DNA of 35,969 nucleotides from an uncultured Bacteroidota bacterium (lineage in GTDB: Bacteria; Bacteroidota; Bacteroidia; Flavobacteriales; Flavobacteriaceae). This document shows, piece by piece, positions 959-27,935 of this stretch. Within the stretch, counting starts at the first letter, position 1. Each line of letters opens with the position of its first letter. A model generated the notes under the pieces. That model was not told the DNA's origin and searched no databases. It worked only from the letters and a program-made list of their open reading frames with translations. The position numbers and the translations under genes were made by a program. The stretch covers positions 1 through 35,969 of the forward strand of contig CAIMBK010000113.1 in the NCBI GenBank assembly GCA_903839195.1. Reading direction: 5' to 3'.

Positions 959-1035
959 AAATCCCAAATCCCAAATCCCAAATCCCAAATCCCAAATCCC
1001 AAATCCTAATTCCCAAATCCCAAATCCCAATTCCT
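959..1035. repeat. Heptameric tandem repeat (AAATCCC)n, about 11 units; minus strand reads (GGGATTT)n
   Basis: Six perfect AAATCCC units at 959-1000, then AAATCCT, AATTCCC, AAATCCC, AAATCCC, AATTCCT. Confidence 0.95.
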
Positions 1036-1094
1036 TTCTTTTATTACAATTCAAAAAAAATCCTATCTTTATCCAAACCAAAAAACCAAAAAAG

Positions 1095-2507: not shown

Positions 2508-2523
2508 GAATGCTAGCTAACAG

Positions 2524-2560
2524 AAAAATCCGTTTCAAATTAATGAAACGGATTTTTTTG
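2524..2560 (+). terminator. Intrinsic terminator, possibly bidirectional
   Basis: aaaaatccgtttca-(aattaa)-tgaaacggattttt hairpin followed by a T run, between convergent genes. Confidence 0.8.
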
Positions 2561-2582
2561 TCGAATAATAAGTAAGATGAAA

Positions 2583-3980: not shown

Positions 3981-4091
3981 CTTGTTTAAAATTATTTTTT
4001 GAATTATTGTATTGTAAAAATATAAAAAGAAATAAATTCAAAATCATCTTTAACGCACGTTTAACAATGATTAACATTTCATTAATATTCG

Positions 4092-4099
4092 TACTTTTG
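4092..4099 (+). promoter_or_regulatory. Candidate -7 element (TAnnTTTG) for dapF
   Basis: TACTTTTG ~19 bp upstream of the dapF ATG at 4118; a TTAAC element lies ~17 bp further upstream. Confidence 0.45.
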
Positions 4100-4117
4100 T
4101 ATCAATCAATATCAAAA

Positions 4118-4900: not shown

Positions 4901-4921
4901 ATAAATCACAAAACGATCAAT

Positions 4922-5452
4922 TTGAACACATTAAAAGGCAATACCATTTATCTTCGAGCGCTTGAGCCAAACGATTTGGATTTTGTTTACGAAATGGAAA
5001 ATGACGAATCTATTTGGGAAATTAGCAATACGCAAACGCCTTATAGTCGTTTTTTAATCCGACAATATTTGGAAAATGCCCATCAGGATATTTATGAAGC
5101 CAAACAATTGCGATTGGCAATTTGTAAAAATGACGATTTTTCGGCCATTGGATTGATTGATTTATTCGAATTTGATCCAAAAAATAACCGCGCTGGAATT
5201 GGCATTTTGATAAAAAATAGTGAAAACAGAACACAAGGATTTGGTTCTGAAGCACTTGAATTGCTTATTGATTTTGCTTTTCAACAATTAAATTTGAATC
5301 AATTATATGCAAATATTAATCCTGAAAATAAAGCCAGTTTGCGTCTTTTTGCTAAATTTGGCTTTGATAATATTGGCATAAAAAAACAATGGAATTTAGT
5401 GAATGGTCAGTACAAAGACGAAGCGCTTTTCCAATTAATTAATAAAAAATAA
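4922..5452 (+). CDS. GNAT family N-acetyltransferase (RimJ/RimL type)
   Basis: TTG start; 'IYLRALEPNDLDFVYEMENDESIWEIS' and 'RTQGFGSEALELLIDFAFQQLNLNQLYANINPENKASLRLFAKFGF' are RimJ/L-type GNAT motifs. Confidence 0.88.
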   Translation: MNTLKGNTIYLRALEPNDLDFVYEMENDESIWEISNTQTPYSRFLIRQYLENAHQDIYEAKQLRLAICKNDDFSAIGLIDLFEFDPKNNRAGIGILIKNSENRTQGFGSEALELLIDFAFQQLNLNQLYANINPENKASLRLFAKFGFDNIGIKKQWNLVNGQYKDEALFQLINKK

Positions 5453-5458
5453 AAGAGT

Positions 5459-6511
5459 TTGAAAGTTAAAAAAATTGTAAGCATTGCTTCTGTGGTAGTC
5501 ATTTTGGCGCTTTTGATTTATGGTGTTTATTTGTATCGCGCTATTTTTTCAGAGAATACCACTTTCTCAGAAACCGAATTTTATGTTCACATTCCTTCTG
5601 AATCCAACTATGAAGAAGTTAAAGCAATTATAAGTCCGTTTGTTAAAAACATGGAACATTTTGAAATGATTGCCAACAAAAGGTCGTATCCCGAGAATGT
5701 GAAATCCGGACGCTTTTTGTTCAAAAAAGGCATGAATAGTTTCGATTTGGTTTCGACTTTGCGACAAAATGTGCCGGTTAAATTGGCGTTTAATAATCAA
5801 GAACGTTTGGAAAATTTTGTTGGAAGAGTGGGTTCCCAAATTGAAGCCGATAGTATTTCTTTGCTAAAAACGTTCAAAGATTCAACTTTTTTAAAAGAAA
5901 ATGGATTTACTGAAGATAATGTTATAAGTATTTGCATTCCAAATACATATGAGTTTTATTGGAACACATCGGCATTGAAATTCCGTGATAAAATGATCAA
6001 AGAATATCGTAAATTTTGGAATCCTGCGCGGACTTCTCAAGCGGCAAAATTGGGATTAACGCCAATTCAAGCCACAATTTTAGCGTCCATTGTGCATAAA
6101 GAAACAGTAAAAAAAGATGAACGACCAAGAGTGGCGAGGGTTTATTTGAATCGAATGAATTTGCAAATGCCGCTTCAAGCGGATCCAACCGTTATTTTTG
6201 CTAAGAAAAAACAATTGGCCAATTTTGACACGATTATCAAAAGAGTCTATTTTAATGACCTAAAAATAAATTCGCCATTTAACACGTACGCCAACATTGG
6301 ATTGCCGCCAGGACCAATTGCCATGCCTGATATTACTGCAATTGAGGCCGTTTTGAAACCCGAAAAAAACGACTTTATCTATTTCTGTGCCAGCGTAACC
6401 AAATTTGGGTATCATGAATTTGCTTCCGATTTGAATCAACACGCAGCCAATAGAAAAAAATATGTAGAATGGCTCGAAAAGCAAATCGCTGAAAGCAAAA
6501 TGGCTAAATAA
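5459..6511 (+). CDS. mltG: Endolytic peptidoglycan transglycosylase MltG (YceG-like)
   Basis: N-terminal TM; 'LASIVHKETVKKDERPRVARVYLNRMNLQMPLQADPTVIFA' and 'SPFNTYANIGLPPGPIAMPDITAIEAVLKPEKNDFIYFCA' are the YceG/MltG signatures; TTG start. Confidence 0.95.
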   Translation: MKVKKIVSIASVVVILALLIYGVYLYRAIFSENTTFSETEFYVHIPSESNYEEVKAIISPFVKNMEHFEMIANKRSYPENVKSGRFLFKKGMNSFDLVSTLRQNVPVKLAFNNQERLENFVGRVGSQIEADSISLLKTFKDSTFLKENGFTEDNVISICIPNTYEFYWNTSALKFRDKMIKEYRKFWNPARTSQAAKLGLTPIQATILASIVHKETVKKDERPRVARVYLNRMNLQMPLQADPTVIFAKKKQLANFDTIIKRVYFNDLKINSPFNTYANIGLPPGPIAMPDITAIEAVLKPEKNDFIYFCASVTKFGYHEFASDLNQHAANRKKYVEWLEKQIAESKMAK

Positions 6512-6580
6512 TTCCGGGTAATTTCCCCTCTATAATTACTGATTTTTCTTACAATACTAGCACTTTAACAGCCTAAAAAG

Positions 6581-6608
6581 TTGTTTTAATTAAAATAATG
6601 TATATTTG
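6581..6608 (+). promoter_or_regulatory. Candidate Bacteroidota promoter upstream of the lysozyme-like gene
   Basis: TTG (6581-6583), 17-nt spacer, TATATTTG (6601-6608); implies a ~150-nt 5' leader before the ATG at 6762. Confidence 0.55.
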
Positions 6609-6761
6609 TGGCGTAGAAATTTCTTAACTCTGAAACTTATCTATAAAATAAAGACAATATTTTAAGTGTTTTTGTTTTACTAAGTTTTGTTGTTTTCAAT
6701 ATAAAAAGCAATTTAAATTTCTTTCTATTTTTGAAAACTTCGTTGAGAAGAAAAACAAAAC

Positions 6762-7397
6762 ATGTTAAAAAAAGGAATTTTTTATTCAATTCTGATTCTT
6801 GTTGTGGTGTTTTTAAGTTCCGGCTTTAAACCCTTTAAATCAGAAAACTTCGAATGGTTTCGTGTTGATAATAGTGAAAATAGAACTTATATTTTCCCAT
6901 CAATGAAACAAAATGATTACAAAACTATGAATGTTCCTTTCACCGGGAAATTTTTCATCGGTTACAAAGAAGCAATTGCATTTCGAGAATCACAAGGTAA
7001 ATATCACCGAATCAATTCGTTAGGTTATTTAGGTAAATATCAATTTGGTAAAGAAACCCTAAAAACCATCGGAATTCATGATAGCGCTGCTTTTATCGAA
7101 AGTCCAAAACTTCAAGAAAAAGCGTTTACCGCTTTGCTTTCCAGAAACAAATGGAAACTTAGAAAAGAAATCGAAAGATTTGAAGGAAAAATAATTGGTG
7201 GCGTCCGAATTACCGAATCTGGAATTTTGGCCGCAGCTCATTTAGGAGGCGTTGGATCGGTTAAACGATTTTTGTATAGCAACGGAAAACGGAAATGCAA
7301 AGACGGCTATGGAACTTCGATAAAATGTTATTTCAGGGAATTTGGCGGTTATGAAACGGCTGCCATTGAGCCGCATCGCAATCCGAAAGTTAAATAA
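6762..7397 (+). CDS. Secreted lysozyme/transglycosylase-like protein
   Basis: Signal peptide/anchor MLKKGIFYSILILVVVFLSSGF; 'EAIAFRESQGKYHRINSLGYLGKYQFGKETLKTIG' resembles the ES...GxxGxYQF catalytic region of the lysozyme-like superfamily. Confidence 0.65.
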   Translation: MLKKGIFYSILILVVVFLSSGFKPFKSENFEWFRVDNSENRTYIFPSMKQNDYKTMNVPFTGKFFIGYKEAIAFRESQGKYHRINSLGYLGKYQFGKETLKTIGIHDSAAFIESPKLQEKAFTALLSRNKWKLRKEIERFEGKIIGGVRITESGILAAAHLGGVGSVKRFLYSNGKRKCKDGYGTSIKCYFREFGGYETAAIEPHRNPKVK

Positions 7398-7406
7398 ATA
7401 CTGTTT

Positions 7407-7433
7407 AAAAACCTGTCAACCGGCAGGTTTTTT
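7407..7433 (+). terminator. Intrinsic terminator between convergent genes
   Basis: aaaaacctgtc-aacc-ggcaggttttt hairpin; its T run overlaps the stop codon of the convergent 7432-8154 gene. Confidence 0.75.
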
Positions 7434-8154
7434 ACATTTTATGAATAATGAAAATGGTGGGTCTATTGTGTAAATCCACTTTTGCGTTTTTCCAATCTGA
7501 GGCTCTTTTAGTTTTGATATATTCGGTCGGAAGGGTTATATCAGTGGCAATACAAAGCAAGGTTCCAGGTTGAATCGCTTGCAAAATATCCTCGAGCATT
7601 TTGTTATTTCTAAAAGGAGTTTCAATGAAAATTTGAGATTGATTTTTGTCTTGTGATAATTTCTCTAAATTTTTTAACGCCACTTTCTTTTCTCCTTTAT
7701 CAATTGGAAGATAACCATTAAAAGCAAAACTTTGCCCGTTCATTCCCGATGCCATCATGGCCAATAAGATGGACGAAGGTCCAACGAGTGGAACTACTTG
7801 AATGCCTTTTTCGTGGGCTAATTTCACGATAACCGCACCAGGATCAGCCACTCCAGGGCAACCTGCTTCCGACATTAGGCCAACATTTTTTCCTTCCAAA
7901 CAGGGTTTGATCATTTCGGCGTATTCGGATTTTTCGGTATGTTTATTTAGCGCACTCAATCGTAAAGTAGCTTGAACTTTTTCTGGATGAATACTTTTTA
8001 CAAAGCGTCTGGCCGTTTTTTCGTTTTCTACGATATAATCATCAATGAATTCAATGGTTCTTTTTACAGTTTGTGGTAAAACATCCAAGGGGTCGCTTTC
8101 GCCCAAAGTAGTTGGAATTAAATATAATTTGCCTAAAAACGGAATGGATTTCAT
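7432..8154 (-). CDS. SAM-dependent tetrapyrrole-methylase-fold methyltransferase, RsmI-like
   Basis: 'GKLYLIPTTLGE', 'NVGLMSEAGCPGVADPGAVIVKLAHEKGIQVVPLVGPSSILLAMMASGMNGQSFAFNGYLP', 'IFIETPFRNNKMLEDI' match the RsmI/YraL family; shorter than canonical RsmI. Confidence 0.9.
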   Translation of the reverse strand: MKSIPFLGKLYLIPTTLGESDPLDVLPQTVKRTIEFIDDYIVENEKTARRFVKSIHPEKVQATLRLSALNKHTEKSEYAEMIKPCLEGKNVGLMSEAGCPGVADPGAVIVKLAHEKGIQVVPLVGPSSILLAMMASGMNGQSFAFNGYLPIDKGEKKVALKNLEKLSQDKNQSQIFIETPFRNNKMLEDILQAIQPGTLLCIATDITLPTEYIKTKRASDWKNAKVDLHNRPTIFIIHKM

Positions 8155-8636: not shown

Positions 8637-10064
8637 TTACAAGGATAATTTCTTGTGAATATCTTCCACAAACTTTTTAAATTGTTTGTCTGTAGATACT
8701 AAATTGTCAACGGTTTTGCAAGCGTGTAATACGGTTGCGTGATCTCGGTCGCCAATTTGTGAGCCAATATTTGCTAAGGAAGCTTTGGTAAATTTTTTCG
8801 CAAAGAACATGGCCAATTGTCTGGCTTGAACCACGTGTCTTTTTCTAGTTTTAGATTGTAATGTTTCTAAATCCAATTGAAAATAATCGGAAACTATTTT
8901 TTGGATGTAATCAATAGAAACTTCACGTTTCACATTTTTCACAAATTTTTCAACTACTAGTTTCGCCAAATCAATGGTTACTTCTTTTTTATTGAAAGAA
9001 GATTGCGCAATTAAAGATATTATCGCTCCTTCAAGTTCACGAACATTTGATTTGATATTTCGTGCTACATATTCAATTATTTCTTCTGGAATTTCAACAC
9101 CATCTCGATAAAGAATATTTTTCAAGATAGAAATTCTAGTTTCATAATCCGGTTGGTGTAATTCTGCAGAAAGTCCCCATTTGAAACGAGATAAAAGACG
9201 TTGCTCTATATCTTGCATATCAACTGGTGCTTTGTCTGAGGTAAGAATAACTTGTTTGCCGTTTTGATGCAGGTAGTTAAAAATGTGGAAAAACACATCT
9301 TGAGTTCCGGTTTTTCCTGATAAAAACTGAACATCATCGATAATCAAAACATCAATTAATTGATAAAAATGAATAAAATCATTTCTATTGTTTTTCTTAA
9401 CGGAATCTATATATTGTTGTGTGAATATTTCTGCCGAAATGTACAACACGGTTTTTTCTGGATATTTGTCTTTTATTTCAACCCCAATAGCGTGAGCCAA
9501 ATGCGTTTTTCCTAGTCCAACACCACCAAAAATTAATAAAGGATTAAATGATGTTCCGCCCGGTTTGTTGGCAACAGCCATACCAGCCGATCGAGCCAAA
9601 CGATTGGAATCACCTTCAAGGAAATTTTCAAAACTATAATTAGCATTAAGCTGTGATTCGATTTTTAAATTTCTAATTCCTGGAATAACAAACGGATTTC
9701 TTAATTCAGGGTTTAGGTTTTTAAAAGGAGCGTCAACTTCTTGTGATTTCATAGGACTTCTATGAGCGCTTGGCAATTGTTCGGTAAATGGTTGTTTATT
9801 TCCATAAGTGTTCTCCATTTTAATTTTATAGAGTAACTTTGCGTTTTTTCCGAGTTCTTTGGTAAGCGCAACTTTTAATAATTTCACATAATGTTCTTCA
9901 AGCCATTCGTAGAAAAATTTACTTGGTACTTGAATGTACAACGCGTTATCGGTTAGTTCAACTGATTTTATCGGTTCAAACCATGTTTTATAGGCTTGAT
10001 CTTGAATGTTGTCTTTTATAAAAGACAGACAGTTTTCCCATACTGATTCCGCAGTTTTACTCAT
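8637..10064 (-). CDS. dnaA: Chromosomal replication initiator protein DnaA
   Basis: Walker A GGVGLGKTHLAHAIG, Walker B LIIDDVQFLSGK, C-terminal DNA-binding signature 'IGDRDHATVLHACKTV'. Confidence 0.98.
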   Translation of the reverse strand: MSKTAESVWENCLSFIKDNIQDQAYKTWFEPIKSVELTDNALYIQVPSKFFYEWLEEHYVKLLKVALTKELGKNAKLLYKIKMENTYGNKQPFTEQLPSAHRSPMKSQEVDAPFKNLNPELRNPFVIPGIRNLKIESQLNANYSFENFLEGDSNRLARSAGMAVANKPGGTSFNPLLIFGGVGLGKTHLAHAIGVEIKDKYPEKTVLYISAEIFTQQYIDSVKKNNRNDFIHFYQLIDVLIIDDVQFLSGKTGTQDVFFHIFNYLHQNGKQVILTSDKAPVDMQDIEQRLLSRFKWGLSAELHQPDYETRISILKNILYRDGVEIPEEIIEYVARNIKSNVRELEGAIISLIAQSSFNKKEVTIDLAKLVVEKFVKNVKREVSIDYIQKIVSDYFQLDLETLQSKTRKRHVVQARQLAMFFAKKFTKASLANIGSQIGDRDHATVLHACKTVDNLVSTDKQFKKFVEDIHKKLSL

Positions 10065-10257
10065 TATAATATTAAAAGTTTATTTAGGTTAATTTAGGGT
10101 CTTAAGGCTCTGAAAAGTTGTAAAAAAGGCAGTGATTTTTCCAAGACACAAATATGTGAACAAAAATCGTTAAAAAAAAATAAATTAGTAGTTTATTTTT
10201 TAAAATTTTTGTTGTATGAAGAATAGTATATTTTAAAGCATTAATTAAATATTAAGT

Positions 10258-10662
10258 ATGAAAGAGCATCAAGTTCAAGTTCGCGTTCGGTATTCTGAAA
10301 CCGATCAAATGGGAGTTGTTTATCACGGAAATTATATTCCTTATTTTGAAATTGGAAGAGTGGAATGGTTAAGAAACAAAGGTGTTTCTTACAAAATGAT
10401 GGAAGAAAATGGCATTGCGCTCCCTATAGTTTCTATGCAAATTAATTATAAAAAACCAGCCCGTTACGATGAACTCTTAACTATAAAAACCACCTTCAAA
10501 AGCCAAACTTCGGTAAAGATTGAGTTTGAATGCGAAATTTTCAACGAAGCATCCGACTTGTTAACAACTGCAAATTTCATCCTTGTTTTTGTTTCCCTGA
10601 ATACGGGACGTCCCATTTCGCCACCGGATTATATTGAGGCGCTTTTGAGCGAATTAAAATAA
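10258..10662 (+). CDS. Acyl-CoA thioesterase, YbgC/4-hydroxybenzoyl-CoA thioesterase family (hot-dog fold)
   Basis: 'VRVRYSETDQMGVVYHGNYIPYFEIGRVEWLR' is the diagnostic YbgC/FadM active-site region. Confidence 0.93.
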   Translation: MKEHQVQVRVRYSETDQMGVVYHGNYIPYFEIGRVEWLRNKGVSYKMMEENGIALPIVSMQINYKKPARYDELLTIKTTFKSQTSVKIEFECEIFNEASDLLTTANFILVFVSLNTGRPISPPDYIEALLSELK

Positions 10663-10668
10663 AATAGA

Positions 10669-11280
10669 TTAATCCTTTATTTGTATGGAAACGCCGAATA
10701 TTTCGTTGAAAGCGGCAAAAACATTTGAAGCGTTTTTTTTACGAACGGCAATTTCAATTTTACAGGTTTCGGCTAAGTTTTGAGAAATTAGTTCTAGATT
10801 TTTTTCTTTAATAACGCGCATTACTTTATTGATATTTTGATAATCAAATTCAATAATATAGCTAATGTCAATTGTTTTTTCAATTATTTCGGAAGCTTCA
10901 ATTGCCATTTGGGCGCAAGTTTTATAGGCCGTTATCAAACCACCAACGCCTAATTTGGTTCCGCCAAAAAACCGAACAACTACAATTACTATGTTGGTTA
11001 ATCCAAAAGATTGTATTTGACCATAAATTGGCATTCCAGCACTATTACTGGGTTCGCCGTCATCATTTGCCCGATATTGAAACGAAGTTGTTCCTGTTTG
11101 AAATGCATAACAAAAATGAACCGCGCCAAAATGTTTCTTGCGCAAGGGTTCTAAGATGGATTTTATTTCGTTTTCGGAAGTTATTGGAAAAGCATAGCCA
11201 AAAAACTTGCTGCTTTTTTCTTTAAATAAGACTTCTTCGGAAGGGTTTTTGATGGTTTTGTACGAATCGGTTGTATTCAA
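10669..11280 (-). CDS. YigZ/IMPACT family protein
   Basis: 'FRANDDGEPSNSAGMPI'-like region (YRANDDGEPSNSAGMPIYGQIQSFGLTNIVIVVVRFFGGTKLGVGGLITAYK) is the IMPACT/YigZ signature. Confidence 0.93.
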   Translation of the reverse strand: MNTTDSYKTIKNPSEEVLFKEKSSKFFGYAFPITSENEIKSILEPLRKKHFGAVHFCYAFQTGTTSFQYRANDDGEPSNSAGMPIYGQIQSFGLTNIVIVVVRFFGGTKLGVGGLITAYKTCAQMAIEASEIIEKTIDISYIIEFDYQNINKVMRVIKEKNLELISQNLAETCKIEIAVRKKNASNVFAAFNEIFGVSIQIKD

Positions 11281-11303
11281 TAGATTGTGATTTTGGCTTT
11301 AAT

Positions 11304-11912
11304 TTACGGGATAAGTATCCGATTTTCAAATAGTTGAACAACATCTTCTTTTCCAACTTGTAAATTCCAAACATTTATTCCGAGCGCGGCAGCTGCATCG
11401 GTGTTTTCTTTTTTGTCATCAATAAATAAAGTCCGTTTTGGCGATAAATCATTTTTTTGAATAACATAATTAAAAATTTCGGCGTCGGGTTTTCGCATCC
11501 CTAATTCAAAAGAAAAATATACTTTTTCAAAACATTGATAAAAATCTCTATAAAAAGATTCGCCAACTTTGTGTTGAAACGTATCAATATGAATCGAATC
11601 GGTATTGCTTAAAAGAAAAAGTCGGTATTTTGAGGTTAATAATTGTAAAAATTCCAATCTATATAAAGGAAAATCCAACAAAATGGTGTTCCATGCAGCT
11701 CGAACCTCTTCATTTGAAGCGTTGGGTAAGTATTTTTGAAATCCTTCGATGAAATTCGATTCAGAAATTTGCCCTTTTTCGAATTGAGAATTAATTGTTC
11801 TTAGGTCATCATTCCAGTCATACAATCCCAATTTATTAAAAGCAAGCACAGGCGCTTCTTTATCAAGATTGATAAAAATGTCTCCAAAATCAAAAATTAT
11901 AGTGTTCACCAT
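11304..11912 (-). CDS. HAD-superfamily hydrolase
   Basis: 'IIFDFGDIFINLD', 'LFLLSNTDSIH', 'MRKPDAEIF', 'TLFIDDKKENTDAAAALGI' = HAD motifs I-IV, although motif I reads DFGDI rather than DxDGT. Confidence 0.9.
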   Translation of the reverse strand: MVNTIIFDFGDIFINLDKEAPVLAFNKLGLYDWNDDLRTINSQFEKGQISESNFIEGFQKYLPNASNEEVRAAWNTILLDFPLYRLEFLQLLTSKYRLFLLSNTDSIHIDTFQHKVGESFYRDFYQCFEKVYFSFELGMRKPDAEIFNYVIQKNDLSPKRTLFIDDKKENTDAAAALGINVWNLQVGKEDVVQLFENRILIP

Positions 11913-12966
11913 GGTTTCGATATTGTATTAATTCATCAGTAATAAGTGCCTTTTTTTCAAAAGGTTTTTGGTCAATTATTGGCGCTTTTGTCCCCGATTT
12001 TAAATCTATTTTTCCAACAAAAATGCGTGCTTCGTCCCAAAGGTTTTCATCAATAAAACGTTGTAATGTGTCTCTTCCGCCTTCAATTAGTACTGATTGA
12101 ATTTTGTTTTTATATAAAACATCTAAGATTTGGCGGGTACTATTGAAATGGAAGTCAATAGTTTCATAAACAATATTTTCTTTTTCTGATTCTTGTTTGG
12201 TTTCATAAATGAGTATTGTTTTAACTTCATTATCAAAGATATAACTTTCTTTTGATATACAATTTTTTCTGTCAATAACTATTCGAACTGGATTATTTCC
12301 CGTCCAATCCCGAACATTTAGTTTCGGATTATCTGCCAAAACAGTTGTTGTTCCAACCAAAATCGCCTGTTCTTCGCTTCGCCATTTGTGAACCAATTGT
12401 CTGGAATATGCATTTGAAATCCAAACGGGTGCTTGCGATTCTCTATTTTCGGGCGCAATAAATCCGTCTTGACTTTCGGCCCATTTCAAAATAATATAAG
12501 GTCTTTTTTGGATATGAAAAGTAAAAAAACGCTTGTTTAATTCATGACATTCTTTTTCTAAAATTCCAACGGTTACATTTTTCCCTGCTTCAATTAGTTT
12601 TTTGATGCCATTACCAGCTACTTTTTCGTTTGGATCGACGGTTCCAATTACCACATTTGGAATCTTATTTTGGATAATCAAATCGGCGCAAGGTGGCGTT
12701 TTGCCATAATGACTACACGGTTCTAAACTAACATATATCGTCGCTTTTGCTAATAATGATTTGTCTTTTACAGCACGAATGGCGTGTACTTCGGCATGAG
12801 ATTCACCCGATTTTTTGTGCCAGCCTTCGCCAATAATATGGTCGTTGTAAACAATAACACTTCCTACCAAAGGATTCGGATAGGTTGTTCCTAAACCATT
12901 TTTGGCCAATTCGATGCAACGTTTTATGTAAAATTCATGTATCTTCACACCACAAAAATAAGACAT
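11890..12966 (-). CDS. ribD: Bifunctional diaminohydroxyphosphoribosylaminopyrimidine deaminase / 5-amino-6-(5-phosphoribosylamino)uracil reductase
   Basis: Deaminase zinc motifs 'GESHAEVHAI' and 'EPCSHYGKTPPCAD'; 'GTVDPNEKVAGNGIKKLIEAG'; reductase 'ILVGTTTVLADNPKLNVR' and 'VLIEGGRDTLQRFIDENLWDEARIF'. A GTG start at 12948 is an alternative to ATG at 12966. The 3' end overlaps the HAD gene by 23 bp. Confidence 0.94.
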   Translation of the reverse strand: MSYFCGVKIHEFYIKRCIELAKNGLGTTYPNPLVGSVIVYNDHIIGEGWHKKSGESHAEVHAIRAVKDKSLLAKATIYVSLEPCSHYGKTPPCADLIIQNKIPNVVIGTVDPNEKVAGNGIKKLIEAGKNVTVGILEKECHELNKRFFTFHIQKRPYIILKWAESQDGFIAPENRESQAPVWISNAYSRQLVHKWRSEEQAILVGTTTVLADNPKLNVRDWTGNNPVRIVIDRKNCISKESYIFDNEVKTILIYETKQESEKENIVYETIDFHFNSTRQILDVLYKNKIQSVLIEGGRDTLQRFIDENLWDEARIFVGKIDLKSGTKAPIIDQKPFEKKALITDELIQYRNHGEHYNF

Positions 12967-17110: not shown

Positions 17111-17270
17111 TTTGTATTAAATTTTGGTCTATTTTTCTCCAAATAAATAATTTTTATCTGTTAAACAATTGTTATTAATTTCGCTTAATATGTTAATTTT
17201 TTTATAAATTAATCATTAAGATTTAAATTTATCCACTTGTATTACTTTGATAAACAAATATTTAAATGAT

Positions 17271-18566
17271 ATGAAAACAAAACTATTTTTACTATTTTTT
17301 TTGATTTTTCAATTAACCGAGGCACAAAACATTACTTTTTCAGACCCAGTTCTTAAAGATTTTTTGCTGATTGCAACTACTAATTTTAATCAAGATCCAA
17401 ATAATTACATCACATATCCACCAATTGACGCTAATAGCGATGGCGAAATTTCGTTTTCGGAAGCTTTAAGTGTTATCGGTTTGGATTTATATTATTTGAA
17501 CATAACTGATTTAGAAGGTTTGCAATATTTCACTAATCTAAAAGTGATTACGACCTATTATGCTAATTTTCCGAATTTCAACCAACCTACTTTGGTAAAT
17601 CTGGAGCAATTAAGTCTCTTAAATTCGGTCGGTTATTCGTCATTGACTTCTGTGGATGTTTCTAATAACACTAATTTAGTTAAGTTACAATGTTCGAGCG
17701 ATTTAATAACTTCTTTAGACTTATCAAATAATACCCTTTTACAAACGGTTGACATTTATTGTCCATCGTTAACAGCAGTAAATTTCAGCAATTTGGTTAA
17801 TTTAAAAAACTTAAGTTATATAGGGAAATTACCAACAATTGATATTTCAGATGCTGTAAATTTGTTAAATTTAAATTGTATAGGTTCTTCGGGTACTTAT
17901 TCTTATCCGTTAGAAAATCGTTTAACTTCGATAGATTTATCCAATCAAACAAAATTGATAAATTTAGATCTAGCTGGTAATTTGTTATCCAGTTTAGATT
18001 TGAGTTTTTGTCCAAATCTAGAACGGATTTCCATTTCAAATAATCTACTTAGTACTTTAAATATTACTAATGTGGCTTATGTCAAAAACTTCTTTTGTGA
18101 AGGAAATTTACTTACTGATTTGAATGTGGATGCGATGTTTAATTTGAAGAATTTTTCTTGTAAAAATAACCAACTAACCAGTTTGTCAACTAAAAATAGA
18201 GTCATAGAAGAGTACATTGATTTTTCGGGGAATCCTGATTTAAATTCCATTTGTTGCGATGCCAATGAAGTTGTATATATGCAAAATCTATGTTTATTAA
18301 ACAATAATGATACGGTTGTTGTCAATTCAAATTGTGGCGCATCATCCAAAATAGCGATGTATCCGAATCCAGTTAAAGACATGCTTCATTTAAAATCTTC
18401 AATTAGCATTTCAAAAGTAGAAATTTTTAGTACTAGTGGATTATTAGTTATGAAGGATGAGTCTGAAAGCGATGTTATTGATATGAATGTTTTAAAATCT
18501 GGAATGTATTTCATTAGAGTTTACAGTAGCGATGGGGTTGCTGTCATGAAATTTATAAAGCAATAG
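17271..18566 (+). CDS. T9SS-secreted leucine-rich-repeat protein with EF-hand-like loop
   Basis: Signal peptide MKTKLFLLFFLIFQLTEAQ; DANSDGEISFSEAL EF-hand loop; repeated LxxLDLSNNTxL/LTSIDLSNQTKL LRRs; C-terminal 'IAMYPNPVKDMLHLKSSISISKVEIFSTSGLLV...LKSGMYFIRVYSSDGVAVMKFIKQ' type A T9SS sorting domain. Confidence 0.9.
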   Translation: MKTKLFLLFFLIFQLTEAQNITFSDPVLKDFLLIATTNFNQDPNNYITYPPIDANSDGEISFSEALSVIGLDLYYLNITDLEGLQYFTNLKVITTYYANFPNFNQPTLVNLEQLSLLNSVGYSSLTSVDVSNNTNLVKLQCSSDLITSLDLSNNTLLQTVDIYCPSLTAVNFSNLVNLKNLSYIGKLPTIDISDAVNLLNLNCIGSSGTYSYPLENRLTSIDLSNQTKLINLDLAGNLLSSLDLSFCPNLERISISNNLLSTLNITNVAYVKNFFCEGNLLTDLNVDAMFNLKNFSCKNNQLTSLSTKNRVIEEYIDFSGNPDLNSICCDANEVVYMQNLCLLNNNDTVVVNSNCGASSKIAMYPNPVKDMLHLKSSISISKVEIFSTSGLLVMKDESESDVIDMNVLKSGMYFIRVYSSDGVAVMKFIKQ

Positions 18567-18827: not shown

Positions 18828-20243
18828 ATGAAAACAAAAATTACTTATTTATTTTTATTACTTCCTTTATTAATATTTGCTCAAGGTCCATTCAATTTTG
18901 ACACTACAACAGAGGGGTTTACGTGCAATTCTAATGGAGGAGCTGCAGGCGCACACACAGTAACACAGTCAGCTGGGGATTTAAGGGTTGATTTTGTCAC
19001 AGGTACGGGTAATAACCCTACTATTAGAAAGACGGATGCCGGTATTGATGCGGATACAAATATCAACTTTATTGAAATACGATTGAAAAACGTAAGTACT
19101 ATAAGCTATTTAAGATTGTGTCCGGCAACAACTGGAACTAATTATGGAAATGTTCTAATTTCTTCCGCCGATACGGAATACCATACTTACTTTATTGATG
19201 TAACTGCATGGACAGGAAATCCTGTTGGTATTGATATAATGTGTAAAAAAAACACTGTAGCTTCAGGTAGTGGTCAGGCCTATACGCCTGCAGCAGGAGA
19301 ATATATTCTAATTGATTACATTAAGCCATTGGCTTACCTTGTAACGCCAGAAGTTAACGTTTTTAATTTTGATACAACAACCGAAGGTTTTACGAATCTT
19401 ACAAGATCAGCGGCTGTTCAAACAACGGAATCGTCAAGAGCAACTTTAATGATCAACTGTACAACTGTAGCCTCTACAAATGCTAAAGTAGCTTTATCAT
19501 CATTACTTGCTCATGTTGAAGGAACAAATAAATACGCGCACATCACTTTAAAAAATACCTCAACCAATACATTGTTTCAATTAAATGGAAAAGCAACCGT
19601 TTTAGGAATTGCTGGTGTAGCAACTACTTTTAATCCAATTCAAACCTATACTTCCTCGGATGCTGACTATAAAACCTATGATTTTGATTTAACTACTTGG
19701 GATAATGGTTATCAATTTCCGGAATTAAACTTTGCAGTTAAAGACACATGGTCAGCAACACCGGTAACTTATGCCGTAAATGATGAAGTTATTTCTTCAA
19801 ATAGCACGTACAAAAACTTAACGGGTATAAATACTGCAAACTCTCCAAGAGCTGATATAATAGCTAATGCTGCTGCGGTTCCAGCTCTTCCTCAAAATTG
19901 GGAATTAGTTGGAACAGAAGGAGCGCTTCTTGATCTTACTAATTCTGTATATGTTGATTCAATTGTTTTTGATAATGTAGTTCCTGCAGCTTTAGGTACT
20001 GCTGATTTTGGAAATACGAACAATACAATTTCATTATATCCAAATCCAGCACAAGAGGTTTTGAATATAACTTCATCTAATAGCATTACCAAAATTGAAG
20101 TATATGATATGCAAGGTAGAAACGTAGCATCTAACATCAATGCTTCAGTTGTGAATGTAGCAGCTTTAGTAAAAGGAGCTTATATTGTTAAAGTGGTTCA
20201 AGAAAATGGTAGTGTTGTTGCAAAACAATTTATTAAAAAATAA
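18828..20243 (+). CDS. T9SS-secreted protein with duplicated beta-sandwich-like (possible carbohydrate-binding) domain
   Basis: Signal peptide MKTKITYLFLLLPLLIFAQ; two copies starting 'FNFDTTTEGFT' (nt ~18891 and ~19363); C-terminal 'ISLYPNPAQEVLNITSSNSITKIEVYDMQGRNV...KGAYIVKVVQENGSVVAKQFIKK' T9SS sorting domain. Confidence 0.85.
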   Translation: MKTKITYLFLLLPLLIFAQGPFNFDTTTEGFTCNSNGGAAGAHTVTQSAGDLRVDFVTGTGNNPTIRKTDAGIDADTNINFIEIRLKNVSTISYLRLCPATTGTNYGNVLISSADTEYHTYFIDVTAWTGNPVGIDIMCKKNTVASGSGQAYTPAAGEYILIDYIKPLAYLVTPEVNVFNFDTTTEGFTNLTRSAAVQTTESSRATLMINCTTVASTNAKVALSSLLAHVEGTNKYAHITLKNTSTNTLFQLNGKATVLGIAGVATTFNPIQTYTSSDADYKTYDFDLTTWDNGYQFPELNFAVKDTWSATPVTYAVNDEVISSNSTYKNLTGINTANSPRADIIANAAAVPALPQNWELVGTEGALLDLTNSVYVDSIVFDNVVPAALGTADFGNTNNTISLYPNPAQEVLNITSSNSITKIEVYDMQGRNVASNINASVVNVAALVKGAYIVKVVQENGSVVAKQFIKK

Positions 20244-20275
20244 TTTCCTTTAATATTAAGAAATAATAAATTATC

Positions 20276-20319
20276 AAAAAGAGCATTCTAATTTATTTAC
20301 AATTGGGATGTTCTTTTTT
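20276..20319 (+). terminator. Intrinsic terminator
   Basis: aaaaagagcattc ... gggatgttcttttttaa stem with T run after the T9SS gene. Confidence 0.6.
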
Positions 20320-20424
20320 AATAAGCAAACCACTGGTTTTTGAGATGTATTTTTGTTCTAGTGTCACGTTTTAATATTAAGTTTTCCCATTAACTTTAAG
20401 TCCAAGCTAAATTAGTAAATCAAT

Positions 20425-22188
20425 TTGATTATGAAAGTTCATTATAAACATATCGCCTTAGTTGGCTTTTTTCTATTTTTTATTATAAAATCACAAGCAC
20501 AAAAAATAGCTGTGCCCATTAGTTCATATGGTGTTTGGGATCGTGGAGGAGGAGTTGATGATTATTCCGATTCAAAGGCCGACTTTGTTTTGGGCATAGA
20601 AGTCTCAGCTACATGGGCAGAAGTGCAATCCATGGGGCCCGGAAAATATGATTTTTCGCAATTTCAAGAAGTATTAAATACAGCAGCCAAATATCATAAA
20701 ATAGTAAAAATAAGTATAAATGTAGGGCCAAATTCTCCTTTATGGCTCTATGATAATGGTGTGCCATTGGTCAAAGTAATTAGCAAAAAACCTGAAAAAC
20801 ATGCAATAAAATTTTCCAATTACCCCTTTTATTTAAATGAAAATCATAAGAAATATTATTTTGAATTGATAAAACAATTCTCACTTTTTTTAAGAAATCA
20901 GCCTAAAGAAAAATTTGATTGTATTGCTTTTGTACAAGTAAAAACAGGCGCTACTGGTGACGAAGAACCCTACAAAGGAGAACCTGAAGATGAAAAATTT
21001 GCAATTGATAAAAAAAAGGTATGGGAAGAATATCGGATAGAAGCATTCGAGCAATTTAAGAAGTATTTTAATGATGTATCTGACCGTCAAATTGTGTTAA
21101 CATTTAATAATGTTGATCCTATAAAAAGTCCCGTTGCTAACAATTGGGTGATGAATACGATCGACCCGAAAATTGGATTTGGTATAAAAGGAGGCGCCTA
21201 CAATAGAGGACACCATTTAACTGGCGAACAATCATTCAAAGAACAATGGACGCCTTATCTTATTAATCCTAAAGGGATGAAACTTTTCTCAGCTTCTGAA
21301 ATGGATGAATCTTGGAGAAAAGAAATATTTAACATCAATACAGAATTGGCTTTTTATTGGTCAGCCCTTAGTGGAATTAATACAGGATTATCGTCTTATA
21401 ATTGCTCCAAAAGAGCAATCCAATATGCTATGGAGCATCAGGAAATTAGAGACATTTTTAAAATGTACAATAAATACGCACAGCAGGTTTATCCAGCTTC
21501 TGCCACTACGGCCTTTTCTGTATTTCACGAAGGTTTAAATGCCGCTGATACCATTAAATTCCCAGAGAAAAAATTCGGGAATGCAAAATCGAAAAACTTG
21601 GAACGCTATACTAACATTTGTAATGCCTATGCCTCAAGAGGGGCAAAAATGGATGATTTAGAAGCAGCCGATATAGGTCAAGTAAATCAAAGAGAGAGAC
21701 AAAAGGGATATAACGATGCTGGATGGGACATTGCCGAAGGAAATTTTGAACGTTTCTTGTATCAAATTAAACCCGACGAAACTTCCATAGGGCTTTTCAG
21801 GGTTAGAGGTGAGATAGACAAAACCTCCTCTAAATACGATCGTTTTGCTCGTTCTTTTGAAAATGCGACAGGAAAAAATACTATGTATTTTAAATTTGAT
21901 GACGAGATGTTTATCGCTTCAAAACCGAAAAGTTTAAAATTTACCATCACTTGGCTGGATAAAAACCCGGGTTCAACTTGGGCATTACAATACAATAAAG
22001 GAAAACAAATGAAAACGGCTCTTGATATAAAAGGAAAAGGCGATAACCAGTGGAAAACCGAAACAGTTGAGGTTTCTGACATGCAGTTAAACCATAGTGG
22101 AAAAATGGAGTCTGATTTTATATTGGTAAATACCGATTCAATCGATGATATTTTTAACGGCATTGAAGTAAATATTCAACGAAAATAA
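20425..22188 (+). CDS. Secreted TIM-barrel glycoside-hydrolase-like protein, family not recognised
   Basis: Signal peptide (IALVGFFLFFIIKSQAQ); 'GIEVSATWAEVQSMGPGKYDFSQFQEVLNTAAKYHKIVKISINVGPNSPLWL' resembles the GH42-like clan GH-A beta-barrel start; candidate acidic residues in 'FVQVKTGATGDEEPYKGEPEDE' and 'LFSASEMDESW'; C-terminal beta-rich region. Start may be 20431 (second Met). Confidence 0.65.
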   Translation: MIMKVHYKHIALVGFFLFFIIKSQAQKIAVPISSYGVWDRGGGVDDYSDSKADFVLGIEVSATWAEVQSMGPGKYDFSQFQEVLNTAAKYHKIVKISINVGPNSPLWLYDNGVPLVKVISKKPEKHAIKFSNYPFYLNENHKKYYFELIKQFSLFLRNQPKEKFDCIAFVQVKTGATGDEEPYKGEPEDEKFAIDKKKVWEEYRIEAFEQFKKYFNDVSDRQIVLTFNNVDPIKSPVANNWVMNTIDPKIGFGIKGGAYNRGHHLTGEQSFKEQWTPYLINPKGMKLFSASEMDESWRKEIFNINTELAFYWSALSGINTGLSSYNCSKRAIQYAMEHQEIRDIFKMYNKYAQQVYPASATTAFSVFHEGLNAADTIKFPEKKFGNAKSKNLERYTNICNAYASRGAKMDDLEAADIGQVNQRERQKGYNDAGWDIAEGNFERFLYQIKPDETSIGLFRVRGEIDKTSSKYDRFARSFENATGKNTMYFKFDDEMFIASKPKSLKFTITWLDKNPGSTWALQYNKGKQMKTALDIKGKGDNQWKTETVEVSDMQLNHSGKMESDFILVNTDSIDDIFNGIEVNIQRK

Positions 22189-22202: not shown

Positions 22203-23810
22203 ATGGATCTAAAAAAAATGAAAAATAGTTTTTATTTATTGAACTCTTCTTTCTTGTTAATATTAAGTTTTTTCCATTCGATTGAAGGAGTTGCTCAAAA
22301 TAAGCGCCCAAATATTCTTGTTATTATGGGGGACGACATCTCAAGAAATAGTATGGGGGTGTATGGTTCTAAATATATTAAAACACCCAATTTTGATCGA
22401 ATTGCAAATGAGGGCGCGCTTTTTACCAATGCTTATGTTTGTAATCCAAAATGTTCACCATCCAGAGCTTGTTTCTTAACCGGAAGGTATTCTTGGCAAT
22501 TGGAAGAAGCGGCTAATCACATTCCTGTTATACCGCCCAAATGGAAATTTTATCCTAAATTATTAGAAGAAAGCGGTTATACAATAGGCTATACTGGTAA
22601 AGGCTGGGGTCCTGGAGTTTACTACGGGGAACACAATCCTGCTGGCTGGGAATACAATGACATCTCACTTATTCCCCCTTATAAAGGGATAAGTAAACAA
22701 GATTACGCATCAAACTTCGAGGCATTTCTAAGCAAAAGTGACACGGAAAAGCCATTTTGCTTTTGGTTTGGAACCCATGAGGCGCACCGTAAATATGAAA
22801 AAGATTCGTATAAAAAGGAGAATAAAGATTTGAGTAAAGTTACGGTTCAACCTTTTTTTCCTGACAATGAATTAGTTCGTGGTGATTTGGCTGATTATGG
22901 CGTAGAAGTGGAATACCATGATCGTCAAATTGGTTTAGCATTGGCTTCTTTAGAAAAGCGAGGTTTACTTGACAATACCATTATTATTGCTACCTCAGAT
23001 CAAGGAATGCCTTTTCCGTATGTAAAAGGACAAATTTACGATGAAGATTTTCATGAAGCTTTTGTAGTACGATGGGGAGACAAAATAATTCCAGGTAGAG
23101 TAGTGACCGATTTTATAAACTTTCCCGATGTAGCCCCAACGCTTTTGGAAGCAGCTGGGCTAAAACCTGATAAGCAAATGACTGGAAAGAGTTTTCTGGA
23201 CGCATTAGTTTCTGAAAAATCAGGGCGAATTGATGCCAAGAGATCGTATTCATTAATTGGAAAAGAACGTCACGATAATGGCACTACCGATGGGGATCAA
23301 ATTGCTGTTAGTTATCCCGTTAGAGCCATTAGAACGGATAAATATCTATACTCTCACAATTATAAACCGAACAGATGGCCTGTTGGAGATCCAGAATTTA
23401 ACTATAATAATTGCGACGATTCGCCAACAAAAAACTATCTGACGGGTTTAAAAGAAGGAGATAAAGATTATAATTATTTTAAGTTATCTTTTGGCAAACG
23501 CCCTGCCGATGAGCTTTTTGATTTAGAAAAAGATCCTGATTGCGTCAACAATATCGCATCTGACCCTCAATATGCGTCCTTAATTAAGGAGTTAAAGACA
23601 AAAATGGAAAAGGATTTAAGAAAACAAAAAGACCCAAGAGTACTTGGTAAGGGAGATGTTTTTGATTACTATCCACAGATTCGTGAGGAAAAAATAAAAA
23701 AATTGTATAAAGACAAGTATTATAGTATGTTTGACAAGTTTTTTGAGAAATTTGGAAAAAAAACAGTCCCAATACCTTCAGGTTTTGTTGAAAAAGACGG
23801 GGAGAATTAA
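22203..23810 (+). CDS. Secreted family S1 sulfatase (heparan N-sulfatase-like architecture)
   Basis: 'RPNILVIMGDDISRNSMGVYG', formylglycine motif 'CSPSRACFLTGRYSW', 'IIIATSDQGMPFPYVKGQIYDEDFHEAFVVRW'. Start could be 22218 (second Met). Confidence 0.93.
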   Translation: MDLKKMKNSFYLLNSSFLLILSFFHSIEGVAQNKRPNILVIMGDDISRNSMGVYGSKYIKTPNFDRIANEGALFTNAYVCNPKCSPSRACFLTGRYSWQLEEAANHIPVIPPKWKFYPKLLEESGYTIGYTGKGWGPGVYYGEHNPAGWEYNDISLIPPYKGISKQDYASNFEAFLSKSDTEKPFCFWFGTHEAHRKYEKDSYKKENKDLSKVTVQPFFPDNELVRGDLADYGVEVEYHDRQIGLALASLEKRGLLDNTIIIATSDQGMPFPYVKGQIYDEDFHEAFVVRWGDKIIPGRVVTDFINFPDVAPTLLEAAGLKPDKQMTGKSFLDALVSEKSGRIDAKRSYSLIGKERHDNGTTDGDQIAVSYPVRAIRTDKYLYSHNYKPNRWPVGDPEFNYNNCDDSPTKNYLTGLKEGDKDYNYFKLSFGKRPADELFDLEKDPDCVNNIASDPQYASLIKELKTKMEKDLRKQKDPRVLGKGDVFDYYPQIREEKIKKLYKDKYYSMFDKFFEKFGKKTVPIPSGFVEKDGEN

Positions 23811-23835: not shown

Positions 23836-25242
23836 ATGAATACAAAAAACATACTAACTTTTGCTATCCTACTAGCAGCATTTGGGATACAAGCCCAAGA
23901 AACAAAAAATACTAAAAAACCCAATATAGTTTTCATTTTAGCCGATGATATGGGATACAATGAGTTGGGGAGCTATGGCGGTAAAATAATAGAAACTCCA
24001 AACATTGATCAATTGGCAAAAGAGGGAATGAAATTTTCTAATCATTATTGTGGATCTAATATTTGCGCTCCTTCGCGAGGAACTTTAATGACGGGAAAAC
24101 ATACGGGACATGCTTATATAAGAGATAATAAACCACTTCCTTATGAAGGTAATGAGCCTATTCCAGCAAGTGAAATTACAGTTGCTGAAATCTTGAAAAC
24201 TGCAGGATATACAACTGGAGCTTTTGGGAAATGGGGACTGGGTTATCCAGCTTCAGAAGGATCTCCAAACAATCAAGGTTTTGACCAGTTTTATGGTTAT
24301 AATGGTCAAATTCATGCCCATAATTATTTCACTTCCTATTTGCGTAAAAATGACTTAGTGGAATTGAATTCAAATATAGACGCTCCCTATTCTGTGTATA
24401 GCGCTGATATTATTAAAGATAGAGCATTAGAGTTTGTTGAAGACAATAAAAACAACCCTTTCTTCTTGTATTTTTGTCCTACTTTACCTCATAATCCGTA
24501 TCACCAACCCGATGATAAAACATTAGAATACTATGCCGAAAAAACAGGATTTCCGATAGGAGATGCTCATTCTGAAGATTTCAGTGTTCCTAAATATGCG
24601 GCATTAACGTCGAGATTAGACCAAGAAGTAGGCGAAATTGTGGCGAAATTAAAAGAACTGAATCTGTTGGATGATACCTTAATAATTTTCGCAAGTGATA
24701 ATGGATCGGCACTTACTAAGGAAGAAGATAGTTACCTGCGTAGTGGTGGAGATTTAAGAGGAAGAAAATCTGAAGTGTATGAAGGTGGAATTAAAAGCCC
24801 CTTAATTGCTTTTTGGAAAGGGAAAATTATTCCTGGAAGCAGTAGTAATCATATCTCCGCTTTTTGGGATTTTTTGCCTACTTGTGCAGAAATTGTAAAG
24901 GCAAAAACACCTGATAATATTGACGGAATTTCTTATTTACCTACACTTTTAGGAAAAACTGACAATCAAAAACAGCACGATTATCTGTATTGGGAACGCA
25001 GCCAAAGTCAAGCCATCAGAAAAGGGGATATGAAGGCAAATTTTGTTTACGATAAGGCAACTCAAAAACAAAATATTGAAATTTACAATCTTGCTCAAGA
25101 TCCTTTTGAAAAAAATAATTTAGCCGAAACAATGCCAGATCTTAAAGCAGAGTTTATTAAAATAGCTCAAACCGCCAGAGTAGAATCTGAAATTTTTCCA
25201 TTGGTGAAAAAAGCAAAAAAAGCAAAGGTAAAAACCCATTAA
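23836..25242 (+). CDS. Secreted family S1 sulfatase (arylsulfatase A-like)
   Basis: Start MNTKNILTFAILLAAFGIQAQ (ORF-track start at 23731 is inside the previous gene); 'KPNIVFILADDMGYNELGSYGG', 'CAPSRGTLMTGKHTGH', 'LIIFASDNGSALTKEEDSYLRSGGDLRGRKSEVYEGGIKSPLIAFWKG'. Confidence 0.94.
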   Translation: MNTKNILTFAILLAAFGIQAQETKNTKKPNIVFILADDMGYNELGSYGGKIIETPNIDQLAKEGMKFSNHYCGSNICAPSRGTLMTGKHTGHAYIRDNKPLPYEGNEPIPASEITVAEILKTAGYTTGAFGKWGLGYPASEGSPNNQGFDQFYGYNGQIHAHNYFTSYLRKNDLVELNSNIDAPYSVYSADIIKDRALEFVEDNKNNPFFLYFCPTLPHNPYHQPDDKTLEYYAEKTGFPIGDAHSEDFSVPKYAALTSRLDQEVGEIVAKLKELNLLDDTLIIFASDNGSALTKEEDSYLRSGGDLRGRKSEVYEGGIKSPLIAFWKGKIIPGSSSNHISAFWDFLPTCAEIVKAKTPDNIDGISYLPTLLGKTDNQKQHDYLYWERSQSQAIRKGDMKANFVYDKATQKQNIEIYNLAQDPFEKNNLAETMPDLKAEFIKIAQTARVESEIFPLVKKAKKAKVKTH

Positions 25243-25245
25243 CCA

Positions 25246-26784
25246 ATGAAAATCAAATATATAGTTTTAAGCTTTTTAGCTTTTACAGTTAGTATAAAAA
25301 GCAACAGTCAAACAAATGATAAAACAGTAAAACCGAATATTGTTTTTATTTATTTAGACGATTTAGGATATGGAGATTTAAGTTGTTATGGAGCAACCGC
25401 AATAAAAACGCCCAATATTGATGCTTTAGCCAATGGAGGAGTTCGATTTACAAATGGATATGCCACTTCGGCAACTTGTACACCAAGCCGTTATGGTCTG
25501 CTTACCGGGGTTTATCCTTGGAGAAATAAAGACGCCAAAATACTTCCGGGTTCAGCACCCTTATTGATTGGTAAAGAGCAACTAACCATTCCTAAAATGT
25601 TAAAAGAAAAAGGATACCAAACTGCCGTTGTAGGTAAGTGGCATTTGGGTTTAGGGACAGGAATTGTAGATTGGAATCAACAATTAGATGCAGGTCCTAA
25701 TGATGTAGGTTTTGATTATTCTTATATTATGGCCGCCACACAAGATAGAGTTCCTACTATTTACATCGATAATGGTAAAGTAGTAAATCTAGATAGCAAA
25801 GATCCCATTTCGGTAAATTATGATAAAAATTTTCCCGGTCAACCCACAGGTAAAGAAAATCCTGAATTGCTTTCCATGAAATGGCATCATGGTCACAACA
25901 GTTCGATTATAAACGGTATTCCTCGAATTGGTTATGTTTCTGGTGGAGCCAGTGCCAATTGGAGTGATGTCGATTTAGCAGATGATTTCTTGGCCAAAGC
26001 ACAAACCTATGTAAAAACCCATAAAGAGAATCCGTTTTTCTTATATTATGCTTTAAATCAGCCCCATGTTCCTCGTACTCCGAACCCGAGATTTGTAGGT
26101 AAATCAGGAATGGGACCTCGTGGAGATGTTATTTTGGAAGCGGATTATTGCGTTGGCGAAATCATAAAAACTTTAAAAGAAGAAGGGGTTTTAGACAATA
26201 CTTTAATTGTATTTTCCAGCGATAATGGACCCGTATTGAATGATGGCTATTATGATGATGCTGTTGAAAAACTCGGCAATCATAAACCAAACGGTCCCTT
26301 GCGTGGCGGAAAATACAGTTTGTTGGAAGCGGGTACACGAGTGCCATTTTTCACCTATTGGAAAGGGCAGATTAAGCCTTTAGTTTCAGATGCATTGGTG
26401 TGCCAAATCGATTTATTGGAATCCATAGCCAAGTTGGTCAATGTTGATGTAAAAAGTACAGACAGTCAGGAACTTTTAGATGTTTTTACGGGTAAAAGCA
26501 ACAAAGGAAGAACGAACTTGGTTATTGAAGCCAACACTAAAACGGCTTTTCGTCAAGGTGATTGGATGATGATTCCGCCTTATCCTGGCGATCCAATTCT
26601 GGAAGAAGTTAATATTGAAATGGGAAATGATAAAGAGTTTCAATTGTATAATTTAAAAAAAGATATTGGTCAAAAAAATAATCTTGCTAAAGCCCAAACC
26701 AAAAAATTGAAAGAATTGATGAAAAATTTCGAATTAATTCGAGGCAACAGCTACAATAACGTAGAAAAAATAGAATTGAAATAA
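25246..26784 (+). CDS. Secreted family S1 sulfatase (arylsulfatase / GalNAc-6-sulfatase-like)
   Basis: 'KPNIVFIYLDDLGYGDLSCYGA', formylglycine motif 'CTPSRYGLLTGVYPWR', 'VVGKWHLGLG', 'LIVFSSDNGPV', 'LRGGKYSLLEAGTRVPFFTYWKG'. Confidence 0.94.
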   Translation: MKIKYIVLSFLAFTVSIKSNSQTNDKTVKPNIVFIYLDDLGYGDLSCYGATAIKTPNIDALANGGVRFTNGYATSATCTPSRYGLLTGVYPWRNKDAKILPGSAPLLIGKEQLTIPKMLKEKGYQTAVVGKWHLGLGTGIVDWNQQLDAGPNDVGFDYSYIMAATQDRVPTIYIDNGKVVNLDSKDPISVNYDKNFPGQPTGKENPELLSMKWHHGHNSSIINGIPRIGYVSGGASANWSDVDLADDFLAKAQTYVKTHKENPFFLYYALNQPHVPRTPNPRFVGKSGMGPRGDVILEADYCVGEIIKTLKEEGVLDNTLIVFSSDNGPVLNDGYYDDAVEKLGNHKPNGPLRGGKYSLLEAGTRVPFFTYWKGQIKPLVSDALVCQIDLLESIAKLVNVDVKSTDSQELLDVFTGKSNKGRTNLVIEANTKTAFRQGDWMMIPPYPGDPILEEVNIEMGNDKEFQLYNLKKDIGQKNNLAKAQTKKLKELMKNFELIRGNSYNNVEKIELK

Positions 26785-26786
26785 CA

Positions 26787-27935
26787 ATGAAGAAAAAATC
26801 TATTTTTTTAGGACTAATTACGTTATTCATTTGTTCGAAAGCTTTTAGTCAAAGTAACATAAACAATAGCGAATGCGTTACCCTTAATCCAGAAAATTTC
26901 AATAAAGTGATTGATGGAAAACAAGTGGGTTTGTTTTTTCTAAAAAATGGAAATCTTACGGCAGCCATAACCAATTATGGCGGTCGTATTGTTAGTCTTT
27001 GCGCTCCAGACAAAAACGGTCAAAAGGCCGATGTAGTTCTGGGCTTCAAAAGTATTGACGATTACTTAAAGGCAACCGGCGTGTATCATGGCGCTATCGT
27101 TGGCAGGGTAATCGGAAGAATTGCTGAAGGAAACTTTGAACTAGACGGAAAAATATATTCTCTTCCAATAAATAATGGTGCCAATCACCAACATGGAGGA
27201 TTAAAAGGTTTTCATAATCAAGTTTGGGATATGAAAACGGTAACAGATAGTACCCTTGTATTGTCTTATATTTCTGTTGATGGAGAAATGGGATATCCTG
27301 GGACTCTAAAAGTAGAAGCAACGTATCAGTTGACTTCAAATAATGAATTGAGCTTGAAATTATTAGCTACAACCGATAAAACAACTATTGTAAATTTGAC
27401 TAATCACGCTTTTTTTAATCTTTCTGGCGAAGGCAATGGATCTATTTTAGACCATATTCTAACGATTCCATCCAATTATTTTTGCAAAGTGAATCCCGAC
27501 AAAATTAAAACAGGAGAGATTCTAAAAGCTGCTGGAACCCCTTTTGATTTTAGAAAAGGAAAATCCATTGGTAAAGACATCATTTTAGAAAACACTAACG
27601 AACAGTTGAAAATAGCTGGCGGTTACGATCAAAGTTATGTTTTGAAGAAAAAAAAGTCCAATAAAATTGTTTTAGCGGCAACGGTTGTTGATCCTAAAAG
27701 CGGTCGCAAATTAGAAGTTTTGACTACTAATTTGGGAGTACATTTTTTTAGTGCCAATTTCTTTAAAGGAACCGATGTTGGAAAAATGGAAAAACCATTT
27801 AATTTCAGAGAATCGTTTGCCCTAGAAACCCAAGACTATAACACTCCAAATCAAAAATCTTTTCCAACGCTTCTTCTCAAACCTGGTGAAAAATATGAGA
27901 CCTTTACTATTTTCCGTTTTTCCAGCCTAAAATAA
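26787..27935 (+). CDS. Secreted aldose 1-epimerase (mutarotase)
   Basis: Signal peptide MKKKSIFLGLITLFICSKAFSQ; 'AAITNYGGRIVSLCAPDKNGQKADVVLGF', 'GAIVGRVIGRIAEGNFELDGKIYSLPINNGANHQHGG', 'VNLTNHAFFNLSGEGNGSILDH', 'GYDQSYVL' are GalM motifs. Confidence 0.93.
   Translation: MKKKSIFLGLITLFICSKAFSQSNINNSECVTLNPENFNKVIDGKQVGLFFLKNGNLTAAITNYGGRIVSLCAPDKNGQKADVVLGFKSIDDYLKATGVYHGAIVGRVIGRIAEGNFELDGKIYSLPINNGANHQHGGLKGFHNQVWDMKTVTDSTLVLSYISVDGEMGYPGTLKVEATYQLTSNNELSLKLLATTDKTTIVNLTNHAFFNLSGEGNGSILDHILTIPSNYFCKVNPDKIKTGEILKAAGTPFDFRKGKSIGKDIILENTNEQLKIAGGYDQSYVLKKKKSNKIVLAATVVDPKSGRKLEVLTTNLGVHFFSANFFKGTDVGKMEKPFNFRESFALETQDYNTPNQKSFPTLLLKPGEKYETFTIFRFSSLK

Follow-up and report, generated by a model that had tools for sequence, protein, structure and literature searches.

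An uncharacterised glycoside-hydrolase-like protein family with a predicted clan GH-A-type barrel, encoded beside sulfatases in a Bacteroidota genome

The gene at 20425–22188 of the window (the whole stretch of 35,969 nucleotides that was analysed) encodes a 587-residue protein that probably, though by no means certainly, belongs to a glycoside-hydrolase-like family, uncharacterised so far, whose predicted barrel is of the clan GH-A type, and that we read with the same moderate confidence as a candidate enzyme of galactosidase type, predicted to act on a sulfated galactose glycan. If confirmed, this would add a new glycoside-hydrolase family for sulfated galactose glycans and provide a tool enzyme for these substrates.

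The gene and its sulfatase operon

The organization of the region is as follows (T9SS, type 9 secretion system; positions are those of the window).

18828–20243, forward strand: T9SS-tailed secreted protein of 471 aa, often beside the family gene
20425–22188, forward strand: candidate barrel glycosidase gene, TTG start, 587 aa, unclassified by Pfam and NCBIfam
20425–20502, forward strand: signal peptide-like N-terminus, about residues 1–26 (sequence inspection; helix 2–23 in the model, low pLDDT)
22203–23810, forward strand: sulfatase 1, CSPSR motif, closest solved relatives S1_11 and S1_8, both distant
23836–25242, forward strand: sulfatase 2, CAPSR motif, S1_20-like (mechanical ORF from 23731; likely start 23836, from the signal peptide)
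25246–26784, forward strand: sulfatase 3, CTPSR motif, S1_15-like by nearest solved relatives
26787–27935, forward strand: aldose 1-epimerase, GalM-like (Pfam and NCBIfam)
28195–32313, forward strand: hybrid two-component sensor/regulator, HTCS (Pfam)
32444–33238, reverse strand: lipoprotein-like protein (N-terminus; weak, sub-cutoff DUF5017 match)
33258–34994, reverse strand: predicted SusD-like glycan-binding protein (domain match)
35006–35965, reverse strand: probable SusC/TonB receptor, C-terminal part, beside SusD and cut by the window end; Pfam gives no match for this fragment

An in-frame ATG at 20431 lies downstream of the TTG at 20425, so that the exact start of the barrel gene is uncertain by two residues; close relatives (L001) have ATG where the window gene has TTG. 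The N-terminus does read as the signal peptide claimed in an earlier sequence-only reading, the putative peptide ending by inspection in ...SQAQ, followed by K, and all motifs quoted in that reading are present in the 587-aa protein and conserved in relatives. The host genome is small and Flavobacterium-like. Since the next ORF (sulfatase 1) follows after 14 bp, and the 181-bp gap upstream holds a terminator-like inverted repeat with a T-run (AAAAAGAGCAT...ATGTTCTTTTTT, 20270–20325, found by eye) between the T9SS protein and the barrel gene, it is plausible that the latter is the first gene of an operon, as had been proposed. The T9SS protein itself was found in 13 gathered sources (window counted), in most cases directly before a family member; it carries two repeated FDTTTEGF-type segments and is possibly a surface glycan binder. 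Upstream of the operon, 17247–18566 encodes a leucine-rich-repeat protein that ends in a T9SS sorting tail.

The sulfatase partners named earlier are indeed present, all three carrying the C-x-P-S-R motif. The best solved relative of sulfatase 2 belongs to S1_20 (7ana, E 6e-96) and that of sulfatase 3 to S1_15 (7ozc, E 5e-193), which a review gives as 3S-Gal and 6S-Gal/GalNAc enzymes, respectively (PMC10154620); judged by nearest relative, the predicted specificities are thus closest to 3S-Gal for sulfatase 2 and 6S-Gal/GalNAc for sulfatase 3. These solved relatives are mucin galactose sulfatases of Bacteroides thetaiotaomicron, which differs from the source of the window in genus and habitat, and host mucin is not implied here; the open-access papers searched showed no counterpart of the barrel family. 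The genome of the window contains only 6 sulfatase-domain genes.

Searching 85,488 species genomes yielded 31 loci with a family gene. L001, L002 and L007 share the gene order of the window, as does L003 apart from one inserted ORF; a same-strand sulfatase is adjacent (<300 bp) in 17 of the 31 loci, many of the contigs being short. A melibiase-type cluster (c5) occurs in six loci, with further melibiase matches in L018, L121 and L123; since the genome of the window itself gave no melibiase, the α-galactoside link comes from the relatives. Sulfated galactans and glycosaminoglycans had both been put forward as substrates to assay: the partners of the relatives are galactose-oriented, not glycosaminoglycan ones, and a glycosaminoglycan substrate was ranked lower because the scanned neighbours include no lyase or glycosaminoglycan-specific partner.

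In the scheme that we propose, the barrel protein, which has no T9SS tail and which we infer to be periplasmic, would be exported to the periplasm. The adjacent SusCD would import pieces of a sulfated glycan that contains galactose, and the barrel protein would cut a galactosidic bond in them; the three sulfatases (predicted as 3-O-, as 6-O- and, for the third, without assigned position) would expose sugars, and the epimerase would interconvert the freed galactose anomers. Several paralogues do carry the T9SS tail missing from the window protein, which suggests periplasmic versus surface roles for the different copies. A barrel of the same fold might instead attack another sugar (e.g. fucose, arabinose or a uronic acid) of a mixed sulfated glycan, leaving the side chains to its galactose-active partners. 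Indeed, clan GH-A spans many specificities, and since GH43 adjoins one relative and GH2 together with an MGH1/GH63-like protein another, the target glycans of the family may be mixed; nevertheless, the nearest structures are mostly galactosidases and the operon is shared with an epimerase and 3S/6S-galactose-type sulfatases, so that we hold this alternative to be unlikely, if worth serious attention.

Predicted fold and relationship to GH42 and GH35

The galactosidase reading draws further on the predicted structure, whose two main domains are:

20530–21405, forward strand: (β/α)8 barrel, residues 36–327 (AlphaFold2 model; Foldseek matches to GH35/GH14 barrels)
21745–22185, forward strand: β-rich C-terminal domain, residues 441–587 (secondary structure of the model)

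The AlphaFold2 model computed with a 43-row alignment (pLDDT 91.4, pTM 0.89) contains eight barrel strands in order (36–40, 55–63, 93–99, 167–171, 224–227, 252–255, 288–293, 324–327) with helices between them, the first being very short, as in the (β/α)8 barrel of clan GH-A. Both the TIM barrel and the β-rich C-terminus (from about residue 441) anticipated from the letters alone are therefore recovered in the model. A model of the L066 member made without alignment reached a pLDDT of 39.

Foldseek places GH35 β-galactosidases on top (E 7e-10, prob 1.00), and GH14 β-amylases (E about 1e-7) and GH30 structures also score; since global TM-scores are low (0.35–0.41) and the rmsd is about 12, this rank expresses clan-level resemblance, not family assignment. 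A core profile searched against the PDB finds GH42 first (5xb7, E 5.4e-7), with GH35 and GH10 weaker and all matches confined to the N-terminal part of the barrel. Comparison by hhalign gives a probability of 96.5 for GH42 (E 7.6e-10, 118 columns) and 87.5 for GH35 (110 columns), and similarity to both is lost beyond about 100–120 residues. The GH42/clan GH-A resemblance noted earlier is thus borne out, and profiles and Foldseek together point, at the level of weak homology, to the clan GH-A β-galactosidases GH42 and GH35 as nearest kin.

It could then be argued that the protein is a divergent GH42 (or GH35) member and an ordinary β-galactosidase. In addition to the profile and Foldseek matches, the members in L012 and L028 pass the PF02449 (GH42) cut-off, with partial N-terminal matches only, and that in L025 falls just below it (20.6 vs 21 bits); the region of strands 2–3 (W...EP...FDF, P-x-W-L) aligns significantly with GH42, and the profile alignment to GH35 (e.g. 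Cellvibrio japonicus Bgl35A) reaches the VQV of β4. However, local GH42 alignments end after about 118 columns, and the window protein has no match to PF02449 at E<=1, to PF01301 (GH35) or to the trimerisation domain PF08532, which was detected in GH42 controls. Moreover, the Q-V-x-N-E acid/base motif of GH42/GH35 is missing (GH35 VQVENE reads VQVKTG here), the C-terminus differs from that of GH42, and the post-barrel region has invariant residues of its own. Membership in either family is, on balance, rather improbable. Against Pfam and NCBIfam the 587-aa protein gives no match even at E=1, in agreement with the earlier failure to recognise its family, and single-sequence phmmer against the PDB returns only a chance viral match. 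The family apparently lacks a model in Pfam/NCBIfam, and the designation "orphan" is appropriate in so far as no curated family exists there but not as to relatives, 54 of which were found.

Catalytic-residue candidates and their clade patterns

In clan GH-A, the nucleophile is a Glu at the end of β7 and the acid/base a Glu, usually within N-E, at the end of β4. The corresponding features here are:

20935–20979, forward strand: loop after β4, Q171-V-K-T174-G-A-T-G-D179-E180-E-P-Y-K-G185 (D179 invariant; 174/180 clade-specific)
21298–21300, forward strand: E292, candidate nucleophile, end of β7 (strand 288–293), invariant
21604–21717, forward strand: post-barrel block with invariant R394, D411, N430 and D431 (alignment)

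Conservation was assessed in a residue table of 56 rows (54 relatives plus the window sequence and a nearly identical copy), in which both D179 and E292 occur in 56/56; R394, D411, N430 and D431 are invariant in a 36-row alignment. E292, the second catalytic acid suggested earlier, is found at the end of β7 by both predicted strand and alignment and fits the GH-A nucleophile, a candidate role assigned from position. The first acid is not simply the Glu of VKTGATGDEEPY, as had been suggested: in that stretch D179 is invariant, E180 is seen in the query clade alone and E181 varies. The segment after β4 is gap-free across the family, and the canonical acid/base Glu is absent from the query clade, which has T174-G175 there.

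In a tree of 54 rows (window included) computed without columns 174 and 180, the pattern T174/E180 of the query clade accounts for 42 rows and E174/G180 (type II) for 6, each group being set apart from the rest of the tree by a single branch (support 100/99 and 95/83, respectively). The remaining 6 of the 54 have Glu at neither position (L/F at 174, Y/Q/R at 180) and require one or two origins. By alignment, E174 of type II is on the canonical acid/base position or one residue off. For the query clade we take D179, perhaps jointly with E180, as the putative proton donor; E292 would act as nucleophile (or as base, if the enzyme is inverting) and D179, aided or replaced by E180, as acid/base from the post-β4 loop in place of the canonical Glu. 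Our broader proposal is tentative, and we would not yet rely on it: that this may be a glycoside-hydrolase family of its own, with a fixed β7 nucleophile and a post-β4 acid/base that shifts position or identity among subclades (E174/G180; T174/E180; neither, with D179 constant), and that it is largely tied to the use of sulfated glycans by rare bacteria, most of them aquatic. If confirmed, the relatives would form a natural series for comparing the proton-donor site against a constant nucleophile.

The absence of a conserved retaining acid/base site in the family, together with the GH14 β-amylases among the structure matches (E about 1e-7), would also suit an inverting enzyme of the GH14 type in which D179 would be the acid and E292 the base, but the sequence profiles indicate the retaining families GH42, GH35 and GH10, which makes this quite improbable. 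That the barrel is a pseudo-enzyme binding sulfated glycan, as the lack of a canonical acid/base Glu in most members might suggest, is very hard to reconcile with the strict invariance of D179, E292, R394, D411, N430 and D431 despite strong divergence.

Distribution and architectures of family members

The 54 homologues come from Bacteroidota, Colwellia and Planctomycetota. Several loci contain tandem paralogues, up to a maximum of four in L010, and further copies were recovered by genome searches. In the phylum search, the full-length alignment (A1) matched mostly T9SS tails, and a core alignment (A2) was built instead. Members are rare: with a cut-off of E<=1e-20 they occur in 2 of the 399 genomes sampled from the phylum and in 2 of 301 genomes of the taxonomic family, the window's own included, and full-length members are present in 6 of 200 genomes of the genus, each assembly being 1.7–2.2 Mb in size. 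Viral contigs yielded no relative, and the open-access literature held nothing relevant on BAL38 or a matching enzyme family.

Some members and neighbours show unusual architectures. In L123, whose genome was reached via the phylum to which the Phycisphaerae locus L030 belongs, a sulfatase fused to a melibiase-like domain (9309–12098, reverse strand) lies beside a type II family member; the fusion was seen in L123 only, Pfam showing the sulfatase alone in L030. No sulfatase motif was detected among the neighbouring ORFs in L063–L065; L064 encodes a family member of 2365 aa (1027–8121, reverse strand) with PKD_6 and SprB repeats and a T9SS tail, and four type III copies were seen in its genome. 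Finally, the members at 3779–8224 in L007 and 8742–13226 in L020, of about 1,480–1,495 aa, have Gly_rich_2 and fn3 domains appended.
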